Positions 11,987-62,093 of a stretch of DNA of 64,000 bases are shown in pieces. The stretch comes from Vallicoccus soli (GTDB lineage: Bacteria > Actinomycetota > Actinomycetes > Motilibacterales > Motilibacteraceae): positions 434,001-498,000 of the forward strand of contig NZ_QZEZ01000002.1 of assembly GCF_003594885.1 (NCBI RefSeq), written 5' to 3'. A model generated the notes under the pieces. The model ran no database searches. It was not told the DNA's origin and was given only the letters and a program-made list of their open reading frames with translations. The position numbers and the translations under genes were made by a program. How positions within the stretch are numbered: position 1 is the stretch's first letter; the number at the start of each line of letters is the position of its first letter.

Positions 11987-12046
11987 CGCGCCCGTGCCCG
12001 CACCCCTCGGCGCACGCCCTCGCTGCACGGACGCCGACGGTTCCCC

Positions 12047-12109
12047 GGGAACCGCAGAAGGCGCCCTTCTAGCGATCTAGCCACCACAAGGGCACCTTCT
12101 GCGGTTCCC
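12047..12109. repeat. Palindromic element, copy 1 (GCAGAAGGCGCC family)
   Basis: Two 22-base arms (12047-12068 and 12088-12109) are inverted copies with one mismatch, around a 19-base loop containing CTAGCGATCTAG. The arm core GCAGAAGGCGCCC is shared with copies at 13187 and 50707. It lies just past the stop of the orphan endonuclease gene, between it and the dusB start. Confidence 0.85.
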
Positions 12110-12117
12110 GACCGCGG

Positions 12118-13089
12118 CTACGAGGCCCGCGTCCCGGACGACACGCGTACCGCCGGCGCAGGGCGTCCGGCACCCACGGCGAGCGCGGACCGCAGCTGCT
12201 CCACGACGCTCGCGGCGTCGTCACGGAGCTGCTGCGGCGTGACCGGGAGGACGAGCACCCCGAGGCTCGCCAGCGCCCGTCGTCGGCGCTGGTCGGCCTG
12301 CCACCGCGCCGGTGACAGGTGCCACTCCCGCGAGTCCACCTCGAGCGCGACGCCGCACTGGGGCCAGTACGCGTCCGGTCGCGCGACGAAGCGCCCGGCC
12401 TCGTCGACGAGGTCGACGTTCCAGGACGCGGCCGGCAGCTGCGCGGCGAGGAGCAGACGGCGCGCCCTGGCCTCCGCCACGCTGCGCACCCCGGCCGCCA
12501 CCTCGGCGAGCGCCGCTCGTGGCCGCAGCGTGCCGCGCCGTTGCGCTTGGCGGAGCTCGCGGGCCAGCTGCGCCTCGTCGCACCGGGACCGCTGGACCGC
12601 TTCGGAGACGATCTGGCGCACCAGGTCGAGGTCGTCCAGCCGCCTGCACCGGTCGATGACGGCGCGAGCGACCGGGGCGACCGGCACGCCGTCGACCTCA
12701 CGGGCGCGCGGCAGGCGCACGGTCCTCTCCACGACCACGAAGCCGACGCTCTTGCGCCTCCTCGCGTGCGGCACCAGCAGCTCGACCTCCGGCGCACCCG
12801 CGGCGGCGCGCAGCCCCGACCGGCGCAGCGCCTCCGCGCCCGTGAGGACGGACCCCGCTCCCCCGTAGAGCACGGCGGCCCTCGCGCGCTGCGTCGACGT
12901 CGGCGTCCCCCCGTGCGCGAGCACGACACCGGGGAGCAGTCGCTGCCACGGACCGCCCGGCCGCGTGCGGTGACCCCAGGTGCCCGACGCCATGCCCACC
13001 TCCCGCAGCTGGCGGTGCGTCACGACGGCGTCCTGGGCCCGCAGCAGGGCCTCGAGCGCGGGCACGTCGTACTCGGCACGGCGGGGCAC
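12118..13089 (-). CDS. AbiEi-antitoxin-like / DUF559 endonuclease-fold protein (orphan)
   Basis: 323 aa. The N-terminus (LEALLRAQDAVVTHRQLREV) is a winged-helix segment as in AbiEi type IV antitoxins. The C-terminal 100 residues resemble the Vsr/DUF559 nuclease fold: VARPDAYWPQCGVALEVDS supplies the D and E-x-D of a PD-(D/E)XK site, followed by REWHLSPARWQADQRRRRAL and VLVLPVTPQQL. Such proteins are abundant and highly variable in actinobacteria and their function is unknown. No toxin partner (AbiEii) is adjacent. The gene is bracketed by two palindromic elements (12047-12109 and 13187-13248), which hints at unit-wise acquisition. GTG start at 13089; the ribosome binding site is weak. Confidence 0.72.
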   Translation of the reverse strand: MPRRAEYDVPALEALLRAQDAVVTHRQLREVGMASGTWGHRTRPGGPWQRLLPGVVLAHGGTPTSTQRARAAVLYGGAGSVLTGAEALRRSGLRAAAGAPEVELLVPHARRRKSVGFVVVERTVRLPRAREVDGVPVAPVARAVIDRCRRLDDLDLVRQIVSEAVQRSRCDEAQLARELRQAQRRGTLRPRAALAEVAAGVRSVAEARARRLLLAAQLPAASWNVDLVDEAGRFVARPDAYWPQCGVALEVDSREWHLSPARWQADQRRRRALASLGVLVLPVTPQQLRDDAASVVEQLRSALAVGAGRPAPAVRVSSGTRAS

Positions 13090-13186
13090 CGGTCGACGAT
13101 GACGGCGCGCCGGCTCCGCGCGCTGCGTCCGCTGCGCGCACCTGGGGACGATCCGCGGTCCGTGCGCCTGTGGACAGCGCCACCCT

Positions 13187-13248
13187 GGAACCGCAGAAGG
13201 CGCCCTCGTGGCGATCTAGCCGCCAGAGGGGCGCCTTCTGCGGATCCG
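13187..13248. repeat. Palindromic element, copy 2 (GCAGAAGGCGCC family)
   Basis: Inverted repeat with arms starting GGAACCGCAGAAGGCGCCC on the left and the complementary GGCGCCTTCTGCGGATCC on the right, with several mismatches nearer the loop. The centre, GCGATCTAGCCGCC, closely matches the loop of copy 1 (AGCGATCTAGCCACC). It lies about 40 bases past the glycyl-tRNA synthetase gene and upstream of the endonuclease gene. Confidence 0.82.
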
Positions 13249-13286
13249 GGGGATCCGGAGCAGCGGTGCGCGCGGCGGAGCGGGCC

Positions 13287-14675
<1,389 letters not shown>

Positions 14676-14718
14676 GAGGGGTGTGCTCCATCCGGCTGGG
14701 TGTCGGCGAGCGGCCAGG

Positions 14719-15129
14719 CTACCGCCCCGCGGACGGCGTCCCGCCCGCCCCGTCGAGGTCGGTCGGGACGTGCGGCGCGCTGGCCCGGCCGACGCCGACC
14801 GTGCCGGCGTCCGCGGCCCGCGCCGTCGTGCCGGCGGCCGGCTCGGGGCGGCGGTCCAGGACCTCGTACGCCGTCGGCTCGTCGAGCGCGCGGGACAGCA
14901 GCGGCACGGCGCGCACCCGCACGTCGTACGCCGACAGCGCCCGCCGGTACGCCCCCACCCCCGCCCAGCGGGTGGCCAGCGTCCACAGGCCCGGGTCGTC
15001 GGTGGCGCGCCCGACCTCGCCGCCCTCGCACCCCGCCTGCGCGGCGAGGACGTCGAGGACCTCGCGCGCCTCGGCGAGGAAGGCGGCGGCACCCTCGGGC
15101 GCGACGGCGTAGCGGGTCACCACGAGCAC
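14719..15129 (-). CDS. Antibiotic biosynthesis monooxygenase (ABM) domain protein
   Basis: 136 aa. The first 95 residues form a single ABM ferredoxin-like domain ([40 protein letters not shown]), followed by a low-complexity tail. Family members include quinol or polyketide oxygenases and haem-degrading enzymes; the substrate cannot be told here. The GTG start is exactly six bases downstream of TAGGCT (15136-15141), so the transcript is probably leaderless. It lies between glyQS and the divergent znuA promoter. Confidence 0.72.
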
Positions 15130-24519: not shown

Positions 24520-28127
<3,608 letters not shown>

Positions 28128-47970: not shown

Positions 47971-48004
47971 CCGGCCGCGCCGCCCTCCCGGGCGGCGCGG
48001 CCGG
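47971..48004. terminator. Bidirectional terminator between carboxypeptidase and oxidoreductase
   Basis: A perfect 15-bp GC-only stem (47971-47985 with 47990-48004) closes a 4-base TCCC loop, in the gap between two convergent genes. No U-run, as usual for actinobacteria. Confidence 0.8.
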
Positions 48005-48891: not shown

Positions 48892-49191
48892 GGGTCCTCC
48901 GGGTGGGCGGGGCGGTTTGCGCAGGGGGAACCCCGCGGCGGCACGGGCTGTTCCGGGGCCGGCGAGCCGTCCACGCCCGCGCCCGGGGTGCCGACGCTCA
49001 CACCCGGGAACCCCGCCGGGCGGCGGGCCGGCGGGTAGCCTGGACGGGTTCCCGGGCGGCACCACGTCGCCCCTCCCGCGGGCGGACCGCCCGCCAGGTC
49101 GCAGGCGCGACGCGCATCCCGACACCAGGGCCGTACCCCGGCCCGCACCGGGCTGCCCTGCCGACGCGGCCTCAGCACGCATCGGAGCTCC
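48892..49191 (+). promoter_or_regulatory. Divergent promoter region and long 5' leader of the DEAD-box helicase
   Basis: A -10-like TAGCCT at 49036-49041 is about 150 bases before the helicase ATG at 49192, giving a long untranslated leader, as is common for RNA helicase mRNAs. The rest is GC-rich and shows no ORF with coding support, repeat family or recognisable riboswitch. Confidence 0.45.
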
Positions 49192-50694
49192 ATGCCCCAC
49201 GGCACCACCAGCACGTCCGGCACGACCCGCCCCACCCCCCGCAGCACCGCCCGGCCGCAGCACCGCCCGGCCGCAGCGCGGACCACGTACGGCCGGCGCC
49301 CCGCGCCCCGCCCGACCGGTCCGGACCCGCTCGAGCAGCTGTTCACCGCGTCGGCCGAGGCCTTCGACGCGACCGCGGAGCTGCCCTCGTTCCACGACCT
49401 CGGCCTGCCGCAGCCGCTCGTCACCGCGCTGGAGCGGCGCGGCATGCACGCGCCGTTCGCCATCCAGGCCCGCGTCATGCCCGACGCGCTCGCCGGGCGG
49501 GACGTCCTCGGCCGCGCCCAGACCGGCTCCGGCAAGACGCTCGGCTTCGGCCTGCCGATGCTGACCCGCCTGGCCGGCGGCACCCGCGAGAGCCGCCGCC
49601 CGCGGGGCCTCGTCCTCGTCCCGACCCGCGAGCTGGCCAACCAGGTCCGCGACGCGCTCGGCCCGCTGGGGCACGCGCTCGACCTGCGCCTCGGCGTCGT
49701 CGTCGGCGGCGCCCCGTACAGCCGGCAGATCGAGCAGCTGCGCCGCGGCGTCGACGTGCTCGTCGCCACCCCGGGCCGGCTCATCGACCTGCTCGACCGC
49801 GGCGAGGTGCGCCTCGACGCCGTCGAGGTCACCGTGCTCGACGAGGCCGACTACATGGCGGACCTGGGCTTCCTGCCCGCGGTCACGCAGATCCTCGACC
49901 TCACCCCCGCGGGCACGCAGCGCCTGCTCTTCTCGGCCACGCTGGACAGCGGCGTGCGCCGGCTCGTCACCGCGTACCTGCGCGACCCGGCGGCTCACGC
50001 GGTCGCCGACGCCACGTCGCACGTCGAGAACATGGAGCACCGGGCGTACGTCGTGCGCCCGCACGAGAAGCTCGCCGTCCTCGCCGAGATCGCCCAGCGC
50101 CCGGCGCGCACGCTGTTCTTCGCGCGGACCAAGCAGGGCGCCCAGCGCCTCGCCGACCAGCTCGTCGAGGCGGGCGTGCCGGCGACGGCGATCCACGGCG
50201 ACCTGCCGCAGGGCGCGCGCCAGCGCGCGCTCGGCGCCTTCGCCGCGGGCCGCAGCCGCGTGCTCGTCGCCACGGACGTCGCCGCGCGCGGCATCCACGT
50301 CGACGAGCTCGACCTCGTCGTGCACGTGGACCCGCCGGCGGACCACAAGGACTACCTGCACCGCTCCGGCCGCACGGCGCGCGCGGGCACCGCGGGCGTC
50401 GTCCTGTCGATCCTGCTGCCGGGGCAGCGCCGCACCGCCGCCCAGCTGTTCGACCGGGCCGGCGTCGAGGCCGACATGCGGTACGTCGCCCCCGGCGACG
50501 AGCTCGTCCGCGAGCTCGCCGAGTCCGGCGAGCCGGTCGTCGTCAAGGAGGAGCCGCGCCGGTCCTCCGGCCCGCGCCGCTCCGGCCCCCGCCGCCCGGG
50601 CGGGCGCTACCGGGGCGAGCGCAGCGACCGCGGCGAGCGGGGCGAGCGCAGCGAGCACCGGGGTCCGCGCCGACCGCGGGCCGACGCCGCCTGA
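49192..50694 (+). CDS. DEAD-box RNA helicase
   Basis: 500 aa. Helicase motifs in order: Q motif (FHDLGLPQPLVTALERRGMH), Walker A AQTGSGKT, PTRELA, TPGR, DEADYMAD, SAT, and in domain 2 GDLPQGARQRALGAFAAG, ATDVAARGIHVDELDLVVH and HRSGRTARAG. The C-terminal 50 residues are Arg/Gly/Ser-rich (RRSSGPRRSGPRRPGGRYR), a likely RNA-binding tail. It probably helps ribosome assembly or mRNA turnover, especially in the cold. ATG 49192 follows a long leader. Confidence 0.93.
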   Translation: MPHGTTSTSGTTRPTPRSTARPQHRPAAARTTYGRRPAPRPTGPDPLEQLFTASAEAFDATAELPSFHDLGLPQPLVTALERRGMHAPFAIQARVMPDALAGRDVLGRAQTGSGKTLGFGLPMLTRLAGGTRESRRPRGLVLVPTRELANQVRDALGPLGHALDLRLGVVVGGAPYSRQIEQLRRGVDVLVATPGRLIDLLDRGEVRLDAVEVTVLDEADYMADLGFLPAVTQILDLTPAGTQRLLFSATLDSGVRRLVTAYLRDPAAHAVADATSHVENMEHRAYVVRPHEKLAVLAEIAQRPARTLFFARTKQGAQRLADQLVEAGVPATAIHGDLPQGARQRALGAFAAGRSRVLVATDVAARGIHVDELDLVVHVDPPADHKDYLHRSGRTARAGTAGVVLSILLPGQRRTAAQLFDRAGVEADMRYVAPGDELVRELAESGEPVVVKEEPRRSSGPRRSGPRRPGGRYRGERSDRGERGERSEHRGPRRPRADAA

Positions 50695-50706
50695 TCGCCC
50701 ACCACG

Positions 50707-50767
50707 GGTAGCGCAGAAGGCGCCCCTGTCGCGCTAGGTCCGCGACAAGGGCGCCTTCTGCGCTACC
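50707..50767. repeat. Palindromic element, copy 3 (GCAGAAGGCGCC family)
   Basis: Two 27-base arms (50707-50733 and 50741-50767) are inverted copies with one mismatch around the 7-base loop CTAGGTC. The arm core GCAGAAGGCGCCC is identical to copies 1 and 2; this copy starts GGTAGCG in place of GGAACCG. It lies at the junction of the helicase gene and a methyltransferase pseudogene. Confidence 0.9.
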
Positions 50768-50770
50768 GGG

Positions 50771-51450
50771 CCGGGGGGGCGTCGCCCAGCCCATCGACGA
50801 CACGGCCGTGCTGCGCGTGCGGCCGAAGTCCAGCCGGCGGGCGAGCTCGCCGTACGTGGTCCGGCCGCGGCGGGCGCGCACGACGTCCGCGACCAAGCGG
50901 AGCGCGCCGCAGCACGGGCCCGGCCCGACCACCTCGCGCACCTCGACGCCGTGCTCCCGGAGCAGGCGCCGCGCGACTCGTCCGGCGTGATGGACATCGA
51001 CCAGCCGTGCAGGGCGTCCTCGGACACCCGCGTCTAGGACCACTCCTGCACGACCTCGACCCCCCGGCAGCCGGCTGGTGCGGGTGCGGTCGACCGTGTC
51101 GAAGAGGTACGTGCCCCCGCGCGCCGGGACGCGCGCCGTCTCCGCCACCACCCGGGGCAGGTCGTCGACGTGCTCCAGGACGTCGCAGCAGTACACGACG
51201 TCGAAGCCGCGTTCCTCCACCGGCAGCGACTCCCCCGCGCCCACCCGGTCGTCGATCGCGAGCCCCGACGCCTCCGCGTGCCGGCGCGCCGTCGCGACCG
51301 ACACCGCCGACGGGTCGACGCCGGTCACCCGGAGGCCGAGGCGGGCGAACTCCTCGGCGAGGAAGCCGCAGCCGATGTCGAGCGCGCGCAGCCCGTGCAC
51401 CCCCGCGCCGTAGCGCTGCTCCAGCACGGTGCTCCTGCTGCCGCCCGGCC
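50771..51450 (-). pseudogene. Remnant of a UbiG-like class I methyltransferase
   Basis: In the minus frame the fragments ALDIGCG, LAEEFARLGLRVTGVDPSAV, FDVVYCCDVLEHVDDLPRVV and, after a break, RRLLREHGVEVREVVGPGP and TTYGELARRLDFGRTRSTAV are clearly from a UbiG-type SAM-dependent methyltransferase. Damage is visible: the glycine motif is shortened, and between the YLFDTV fragment (around 51080) and the RRLLREHG fragment (around 50965) the best-matching residues lie in another frame, with an in-frame TAG at 51034-51036 that sits at the position of a Trp in this family. At least two frameshifts are needed to link the pieces. The N-terminus is not recognisable before 51450 and the 3' end is cut by palindromic copy 3. 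It is therefore an inactive gene. Confidence 0.8.
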
Positions 51451-51502
51451 GCCAGGGGCAGCAGTCGGGCACGGGACGGGCTCGGAGGAGGACACTGCGC
51501 CC

Positions 51503-51862
51503 ATGATCGGACGGCTCGAGAAGACGGTGCTCGACTGCCCCGACCCGCGGGCGCTGGCGGCGTTCTACGCCGAGGTGCTCGGGATGCGGGTCACCGAGGA
51601 CTCCCCGGACTGGGTGGTGCTCGGGCGCCGCCCCGGCGACCGCGACCTGGCGTTCCAGCGGGCGGAGCCGTACGACCCGCCGGACTGGCCCCACCCCGGG
51701 CACCCGCAGCAGGAGCACCTCGACGTCCGGGTCGACGACGTGGACGCGGCGGAGCGCTCGGTGCTCGCGCTCGGTGCGCGGCGACTGCCCGCCGAGCGCG
51801 AGGAGGGCTTCCGGGTGTTCGCCGACCCGGCGGGGCACCCGTTCTGCCTCCTCTTCGGCTGA
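51503..51862 (+). CDS. VOC-family (glyoxalase-like) protein
   Basis: 119 aa. A single vicinal-oxygen-chelate fold: LEKTVLDCPDPRALAAFYAE, WVVLGRRPGDRDLAFQRAEP, HLDVRVDDVDAAERSVLALG and FRVFADPAGHPFCLLFG. Conserved metal residues are partly visible (HLDV, HPF), but the reaction cannot be told. ATG 51503 has GGAGGAGGAC upstream, and GACACT six bases before the ATG could give a leaderless message instead. It faces away from the methyltransferase pseudogene. Confidence 0.86.
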   Translation: MIGRLEKTVLDCPDPRALAAFYAEVLGMRVTEDSPDWVVLGRRPGDRDLAFQRAEPYDPPDWPHPGHPQQEHLDVRVDDVDAAERSVLALGARRLPAEREEGFRVFADPAGHPFCLLFG

Positions 51863-51982
51863 GCGGCCCGGGACAGGACGCGACGGCTTCACCCGTACGG
51901 CCCACGCGACCACGGCGACCGGCCTACGGTCTGCGGCAAGGCGGCGTCGTCCGCGCCGCCTCGCCGCAGCGAGGAGGCTGCC

Positions 51983-53680
51983 ATGCCCCGACGCGTCGTC
52001 CGCACCGTCCTGCTGCTGGCCCTGCTGGCCCTGGTGACTGCCGGGGTCGCCGCACCGCCGGCGGTGGCCGTGGAGCCCGTTCCCACCCGCGTGACCGCCG
52101 TCGCGACCCCCACCACGGTGCAGGAGGGCGGGGAGGTCCGGGTCACCGCCACGGTGACGACGGAGGCGGGGGAGGCCGTCACGAGCGGTCGGGTCTGGTT
52201 CCTGGTCGGCGATGACGCCCTGTCGTGCCACGGTGAGCTCCGGCCCGTCGACGGGTCCGGCCGGGCGACCGCCAGCGTGAGCATGGTGACGTTCGAGGAC
52301 CGCAAGGTGCACGTGCGCTTCGAGGGGACGGAGACGTACCAGCCGTCCGGTGCGGACGTCCCGATCCGGATGCTGCCCGTCCTGCTCCCGACGCAACTGA
52401 CGCTCGACGTGCAGCCGGACCTGTGGTTCGGCACTGCGGTGCTCGTCGGTGACGCGGACGGCGGCCGGCACTGGAGCTGCGGCTACTACGACGACGTCCA
52501 CAACGGCGGCGTCAGGTTCTACGAAGGCGGGGTCCTCCTCGGCGAGGGCGTGTCCGACGACTGGCTCGACGATCCCGCTCTGGTGGGGGCCATCCTGGCA
52601 CCGGGGCGGCACCAGGTCCGCGCGGAGGTGCCGCCCAGCGACAGCTACATGGGGCGGGACATGGGCCCTGGGTGGGGCCCCAGCTCAGCTACCTCCACGA
52701 TCACCGTCACCGCCGAGGGGGCCACGGCGAGCCGTGAGCTGGTGCTGAACCCGTCCTTCGAGCGCGACCTCGTGGGCTGGCGCACCACCGGCGCCTCGAT
52801 GGCACAGGTGCGGCACGCGGGCGCCCGCGACGGCGAGCAGGTGGCGCGCGTCGCTCGCACCGCAGGCGCCGCGTACGGGTTCGCGGGCAGCGCGCCCACG
52901 GTGGTGGCGACCAACGGCGGCGCCACCTACGTCGCCTCCGCGCGGGTGGCCGCCGCAGCGGCCAGCAGCGCCGGCGCTCGACTGGGGCTGATGCTGACGG
53001 AGCGCGCGCCGGGCGGCGCGGTGCTGCGTGAGACGCGCCGTGACGTCGCTCTCACGACGGGGTGGCGCCGGGTGGCGGTGGCGGCCGTGGCGTCGCGGGG
53101 CGGCAGCTCGCTGAGCCTCCGCCTCGAGCAGTCGGGTGCCGTTGCCGGTCATGCCTTCCTCGTCGACGCCGTCAGCCTGAGGGAGGCGTCGCGCAAGCCC
53201 GGCATCCCCGGGACGCTCACGACGTACAGCGCCGGGACGGACTGGACGCCGCTGACGGCCGAGGCGAAGCGCGCAAGCCGGCGCACGACCGGGGAGCCGC
53301 TCGAGCTGGCCGCGCTGTCGGCGTACCTCGACGGCCGGGGCGCCCGCGCGGGGCGGCAGGTGCTGCGCGGCGTCGTCTACCGCGACGCGGGCGGCGAGCC
53401 CGGCACGCTCGTGGGCACGACGAACCCGGTCGCGGTGGGAGCGGGTGCGCCGGCGGGGTGGCGGGCCCTGCGGTTCGACGTCCCGGTCGAGCTGCCCGCC
53501 GGCGCGTACTGGTTCGGCCTGCTCTCCGGCGGCACGGGCGGCGTCGCCCGCTACCTCGCCCAGGACTCCCCCGGCGCCCTGCGCACCGGCGGCGACCGCT
53601 GGTCCGACGGACCCACCAGGCTCTTCGGGCCGTCCCGCACGGACGCGAAGGACATGCTCCTGCACGGGGTCGGCGGCTGA
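51983..53680 (+). CDS. Secreted protein with Ig-like and carbohydrate-binding-like domains
   Basis: 565 aa. A signal peptide (VVRTVLLLALLALVTAGVAA) is followed by a bacterial Ig-like domain (VTAVATPTTVQEGGEVRVTA and VSMVTFEDRKVHVRFEGTET), a second Ig-like segment with FYEGGVLLGEG, and NPSFERDLVGWRTTGASMAQ, which resembles the start of a CBM4/9-like carbohydrate-binding domain. The last 150 residues (TLTTYSAGTDWTPLTAEAKR, YLAQDSPGALRTGGDRWSDG) are unassigned. No catalytic motif is evident. Promoter -10 TACGGT at 51925-51930 and GAGGAGG before the ATG are good. The codon use is slightly less GC-extreme than that of the neighbours. Confidence 0.75.
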   Translation: MPRRVVRTVLLLALLALVTAGVAAPPAVAVEPVPTRVTAVATPTTVQEGGEVRVTATVTTEAGEAVTSGRVWFLVGDDALSCHGELRPVDGSGRATASVSMVTFEDRKVHVRFEGTETYQPSGADVPIRMLPVLLPTQLTLDVQPDLWFGTAVLVGDADGGRHWSCGYYDDVHNGGVRFYEGGVLLGEGVSDDWLDDPALVGAILAPGRHQVRAEVPPSDSYMGRDMGPGWGPSSATSTITVTAEGATASRELVLNPSFERDLVGWRTTGASMAQVRHAGARDGEQVARVARTAGAAYGFAGSAPTVVATNGGATYVASARVAAAAASSAGARLGLMLTERAPGGAVLRETRRDVALTTGWRRVAVAAVASRGGSSLSLRLEQSGAVAGHAFLVDAVSLREASRKPGIPGTLTTYSAGTDWTPLTAEAKRASRRTTGEPLELAALSAYLDGRGARAGRQVLRGVVYRDAGGEPGTLVGTTNPVAVGAGAPAGWRALRFDVPVELPAGAYWFGLLSGGTGGVARYLAQDSPGALRTGGDRWSDGPTRLFGPSRTDAKDMLLHGVGG

Positions 53681-62055: not shown

Positions 62056-62093
62056 CGGGAGCGCCGCACCCCTCGAGGGGTGCGGCGCTCCCG
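62056..62093. terminator. rpsT terminator (perfect 38-bp palindrome)
   Basis: CGGGAGCGCCGCACCCCTC is followed by its exact reverse complement (62056-62093), 38 bases after the rpsT stop codon and in front of the convergent holA 3' end. Confidence 0.9.

Follow-up and report, generated by a model that had tools for sequence, protein, structure and literature searches.

A long palindrome lying between the stop codon of a helicase gene and the broken remains of a methyltransferase gene raises two questions: whether the element disrupted the methyltransferase, and whether it is kept for the structure that it forms. We examined both in what we call the window, i.e., the whole stretch of 64 kb that was analysed (C2:434001-498000, with 76% GC, from a genome of 4.04 Mb in 20 contigs), as well as in the rest of the genome and in related genomes. 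The palindrome, hereafter copy 3, occupies positions 50707 to 50767 without an assigned strand, and a hairpin scan agreed with an earlier note that had described it as having 27-base arms with a single mismatch: the arms (50707-50733 and 50741-50767; 27 nt, 96% complementary) enclose a 7-nt loop, CTAGGTC (50734-50740), which contains the CTAG typical of its family, and the 49-bp family core (21+7+21) runs from 50713 to 50761. Copy 3 is the top-scoring hairpin of the window, and its RNA folds lie far below those of shuffled sequences on both strands (z -7.0 and -10.1).

The two further copies announced for the window were also found, ranking second and fifth in the same scan and likewise unstranded: copy 1 at 12046-12110 (core 12054-12102), with a small hairpin abutting it on the left (12039-12053), and copy 2 at 13183-13251 (core 13193-13241), with one abutting it on the right (13242-13256). 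The arm motif matches the window nine times within three mismatches, compared to 1.26 matches expected and none of 100 shuffles reaching as many, and six of these nine matches are arms of the three palindromes. As the note had claimed, the outer arm of copy 3, GGTAGC, differs from the GGAACC that copies 1 and 2 share; the compensation that it saw on the opposite arm is present in copies 1 and 3 but only in part in copy 2, where GGAACC faces the mismatched GGATCC. CTAG is rare in the window at large (13 occurrences against a Markov estimate of 34.9), with four of the 13 inside the three palindromes. The window also contains strong hairpins at 26242-26287, 47971-48004 and 62056-62093, which are unrelated in sequence to the palindrome family.

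Genome-wide, we count at least 18 copies, which occupy 16 gaps between genes. An exact pattern recovered 15 of them, BLAST added two (C2:131562 and C4:165580), and one more (C5:150748) came from a covariance model trained on those 17; the number is a minimum, since the covariance-model search scored 150 of its 7014 first-look candidates, and it excludes a weak match to the model at C1:938398 (28.8 bits). All 18 copies share the 49-bp frame without insertions or deletions, and the cores, once oriented, have a mean pairwise identity of 82% (59-98%). CTAG is present in 17 of the 18 loops, at either of two positions after orienting the copies, and the outer letters GCAGAAGG/CCTTCTGC are near-invariant. 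When the genome was searched with the single unit, 31 of the 33 matches fell on arms of the 18 palindromes and two elsewhere, at C1:938424 and C7:61059.

The fold of these copies covaries. Across the 21-bp stem of 17 copies, 93.8% of cells are paired and eight pairs show changes on both sides, and not one of 500 shuffles reaches either value; with the outer six pairs added, in all 18 copies, 91.4% of cells are paired and 12 of the 27 pairs show changes on both sides, counts that again none of 500 shuffles reaches. The proposal that the structure is maintained rather than simply decaying is thus supported. The outer six pairs taken alone are paired in 82.4% of cells, and for the two pairs in the middle of these six, pairing across the stem is seen in no more than 10 and 12 of the 18 copies, because at about half of the sides these letters instead form part of a small hairpin directly next to the core, such as GGTTCCCCGGGAACC. 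Such hairpins, with perfect stems of at least 5 bp, occur on eight of 18 left sides and nine of 18 right sides, as opposed to 3.9% of 20,000 control 30-mers; copy 3 has none, and there the outer letters of the two arms pair with each other. Hairpins formed within single arms, as in the clover form of REP units, are 91.7% paired, yet their covariation is no better than that of shuffles (68 of 500) and does not single them out as the conserved fold. Neither RNA nor a DNA cruciform is favoured as the selected form: on the transcribed strand of copies between tandem genes, G.U and A.C mismatches stand at 9:3 (p = 0.15), and by loop orientation at 12:10 (p = 0.83).

The placement of the copies is equally regular. 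Nine of the 16 occupied gaps are convergent (one of them with the methyltransferase relic as a partner), seven are tandem and none is divergent, and in all 16 the 3' end of a gene lies 15-57 bp from a core. For comparison, seven of 36 called gaps in the window are convergent and seven divergent, which corresponds to P = 0.001 for at least nine convergent gaps and 0.03 for zero divergent ones; these values are rough, as the open reading frames were called crudely by codon-position GC and then inspected by eye. The neighbours are ordinary genes, such as those for a dihydrouridine synthase, a gyrase-B type protein, a PEP-utilising enzyme, a dihydroxy-acid dehydratase and a GGDEF-EAL protein. Copy 2 follows the 3' end of a gene at 13287-15092 on the minus strand that we read as glyS, encoding a glycyl-tRNA synthetase type protein, judging by its Pfam anticodon-binding and class II core domains. 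Copy 3 begins just behind the helicase stop, as reported: the DEAD-box helicase gene (49192-50694, plus strand; Pfam DEAD and Helicase_C) ends 12 bp before it. A scan for terminators with a U-tract, confined to the copy 3 region (49000-52000), found no terminator-like site.

To place the family among related bacteria, we used the five genomes of the taxonomic family, i.e., the own genome (G000) and G001 to G004, which are also the five that an order-level search covers. The covariance model found copies of identical or almost identical geometry, written in other letters, in G003 and G004, as well as one weak match in G001 and no copy in G002; this recurrence lends further support to a maintained fold. 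G004 has a unit of its own, GTTGGCAGAATGCCGCATTCT, which within three mismatches matches 29 times in G004, twice in G003 and not at all in the other three of the five genomes, while a control pattern matched none of the five. Where inspected, the G004 units form direct arrays with a period of about 30-32 bp and an inverted last unit; two loci lying behind genes (L225 1366-1565 and L178 1400-1550) display such arrays of GAATGCCGCATTC-type units with one inverted end unit.

The slots themselves are hardly shared. When the 3-kb flanks of 16 own loci were compared by tblastx with those of 10 G003 and 18 G004 loci, only one of the 16 own slots was common, that behind glyS, and the remaining matches were short and fell around the gene between copies 1 and 2. 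Behind glyS, a 21-7-21 element lies 22-63 bp from the gene end in the own genome, G003 and G004. The G004 copy in this slot is identical to another G004 copy at 46 of 49 positions, as opposed to 29 of 49 for the own copy in the same slot, which itself averages 41.8 of 49 against the other 17 own copies, and this points to lineage-specific expansion. A single common slot could be due to chance, the contrast in identity being the stronger point, or it could be an old fixed element that underwent concerted change. The core of copy 3 matches the own consensus at 39 of 49 positions and a G004 copy at 36 of 49, and its loop has TAGGT in common with the sister loop ATAGGTT; on these grounds copy 3 looks like an outlying subtype near the sister form rather than a decayed copy.

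Between copies 1 and 2 lies a gene (12118-13089, minus strand; weak match to an MTES_1575 nuclease, below the cut-off) with positional relatives of 47-50% identity in G003 and G004 (L239 4831-5549 and L240 3633-4553, both on the plus strand), of which the G004 one has an AbiEi_1 match. These relatives also lie between a Dus-type gene and glyS, yet they point the other way. Since palindrome copies 1 and 2 flank the inverted gene, a local inversion near the palindromes is likely at 12118-13089.

Which known elements does the family resemble? REPINs, which are doublets of REP sequences that form hairpins, are described as extragenic, as inverted doublets of a short palindromic unit that yield one long hairpin, and as occurring in lineage-specific types (PMC3116915), all of which applies here: the 18 copies are intergenic inverted doublets in a fixed frame, sitting in convergent and tandem gaps. 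The ordered clusters with tandem units described in the same paper recall the arrays of G004. Unlike REPINs, however, the present family has only 18 doublets, a conserved CTAG loop and small flanking hairpins, and its genome contains no RAYT-type Y1 transposase (PF01797: no match at E <= 1, with 10 of 14 control genomes positive), for which reason we rejected mobilisation by a RAYT. The copies found, a lower bound, also fall short of the number given for REPs, usually over 100 (PMC2817692). GTAG-tagged and CGTC-tagged REPs are likewise described as short palindromes that form dimers and lie mostly between convergent and unidirectional genes (PMC3733652), but a GTAG tag stands beside only three of the 36 arms and CGTC beside none, so that no tag is a feature of the family. 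The tag and the RAYT being two defining marks of REPs, we did not file the family as REP and call it REPIN-like; their absence also means that no agent of its spread is known. CGTC-tagged REPs are described as having no dedicated transposase (PMC3733652) and so provide a precedent for the missing enzyme.

Such elements are placed mainly in Proteobacteria (PMC3733652, PMC3116915), with actinobacteria not among the phyla that the consulted part of one source names as carriers of tagged REPs (PMC3733652), and our literature search found no report of REPIN/RAYT-type elements in Actinobacteria or of this palindrome family. The 'I-shaped' mycobacterial terminators, described as GC-rich hairpins without a U-tract just behind the stop codon (PMC5335608), are similar in position and form, as here too a stable hairpin follows the stop codon closely; our elements, as terminators mere candidates, differ in being a repeated sequence family with a conserved loop. 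A hairpin of this U-less kind behind a gene is described as having been tested in Mycobacterium tuberculosis, alongside contradictory evidence on such hairpins (PMC5335608). Inverted DNA uptake sequences that serve as terminators are also repeated motifs in inverted pairs behind genes (PMC2267715, PMC2397512), but they are said to number hundreds or thousands of copies (PMC2346458), compared to 36 arms here, present only as pairs. Three other origins were rejected: a known RNA family, as none of the 13 Rfam 15 matches at six scanned loci (E-value limit 1) reached a gathering score; a phage, as no viral contig carried the strict pattern and no phage match was found; and a plasmid, as its matches were limited to a 30-base piece found in five Sphingobium records.

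Turning to the methyltransferase, the earlier note had suggested that the element may have disrupted it, and the position of copy 3 at first seems to agree: the UbiG-like similarity (50771-51430, minus strand, convergent with the helicase gene) does end at the palindrome, only 4 bp away at 50771, and no stop interrupts the frame with the C-terminal similarity ahead of the palindrome. The breaks, however, lie elsewhere. An intact homologue of 279 residues, WP_109336264.1 from plasmid pRB29 of Rhodococcus oxybenzonivorans, matches the relic with 50% identity over residues 42-267, up to window position 50771; the middle stretch of the relic is in another frame and contains a stop, and its N-terminal part is missing, whereas the conserved C-terminal end adjoins copy 3 and includes the motif that reads YMGYA in Rhodococcus. 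Beyond this motif only a short tail remains, which differs in both length and letters between two Rhodococcus plasmids. With the breaks inside the gene and the similarity extending to the C-terminal motif, the element appears to sit behind the gene's natural end, just as the other copies sit behind theirs; it seems not to have truncated the gene, could at most have replaced the non-conserved tail, and insertion into the methyltransferase strikes us as very improbable. The comparison with an orthologue that the note had proposed came out half-way: the conserved part of the Rhodococcus homologue does end at this point, but no conserved palindrome could be demonstrated behind it. Overall, the note's interpretation is partly supported. 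Close relatives of the methyltransferase were found in one of 60 genomes (the own one) and in five of 393 (the own one included). On plasmid pRWAY03 of Rhodococcus sp. WAY2 (L201 1501-2150), a UbiG-like homologue matches in three pieces without an annotated gene and may be a relic as well.

Two further explanations bear on the family as a whole. The copies may be gene-specific two-way terminators with letters in common because this sequence, with an A-rich left foot and a T-rich right foot (AGAAGG...CCTTCT), terminates well, rather than because a repeat has spread; the gene end close to a core in every occupied gap and the strong fold on both strands speak for this, as do hairpins with the same feet and different stems in many other bacteria, actinobacteria included, among the matches listed, which were selected by that very pattern (the contig scan used a loose pattern, the matches listed are mostly unrelated hairpins, and they give no measure of the spread of the exact family). 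Nevertheless, a comparable hairpin is absent from most of the other called gaps in the window, including convergent ones, the common letters run through the arms right up to the loop, the scan around copy 3 gave no U-tract, and the sister copies differ in letters yet agree within their own genome, so that we regard this explanation as rather unlikely. A site acting in the DNA itself, bound or extruded as a cruciform for a chromosome protein such as gyrase where transcription converges, would suit the near-invariant outer letters, the retained CTAG loop, the convergent bias and the lack of a significant RNA-strand asymmetry, and gyrase binding is described for E. coli REPs (PMC3733652). Yet copies in convergent and tandem gaps lie alike close behind stop codons, the letters change between genera and no binding protein is known, which leaves this explanation improbable in our view.

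Our preferred reading, which we consider probable, is a REPIN-like, dispersed and lineage-specific palindrome family that acts as a two-way hairpin at 3' ends and did not cause the methyltransferase relic. Copy 3 would be one member, with two 21-nt units in inverted orientation on either side of a 7-nt loop that contains CTAG, and with small hairpins often flanking the core elsewhere in the family; the copies would have been spread or homogenised by a transposition-like or gene-conversion process, with different subtypes expanding in different lineages. When transcribed, the hairpin probably serves in either direction at the 3' end, in termination, pausing or protection of mRNA ends, as judged from its place and fold. 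Counting against this reading are the small number of copies, only 18, the lack of a known agent of spread, the common glyS slot with its possible old fixed element, and a role at 3' ends without a U-tract; nor did the comparison, made with other genera, reveal an empty site or a polymorphic copy. A bolder version, which we put forward as doubtful, makes this an actinobacterial REPIN-like element that is spread or homogenised without a RAYT by an agent recognising the inverted 21-nt units and the loop; each genus would amplify a different subtype within the conserved 21-7-21 frame, such as the CTAG loop with AGAAGGCGCC arms in the own genome and the TAGGT loop with GAATGCCGCATTC arms in G004, and the palindromes may promote rearrangement nearby, given that both sister genomes have the gene between copies 1 and 2 in the other orientation.

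Being small, strict in geometry and conserved in its loop, with no known transposase, the family offers a tractable case for studying how such palindromes spread, what makes every lineage hold to letters of its own, and whether repeats stand in for U-tract terminators where the GC content of a genome is very high.
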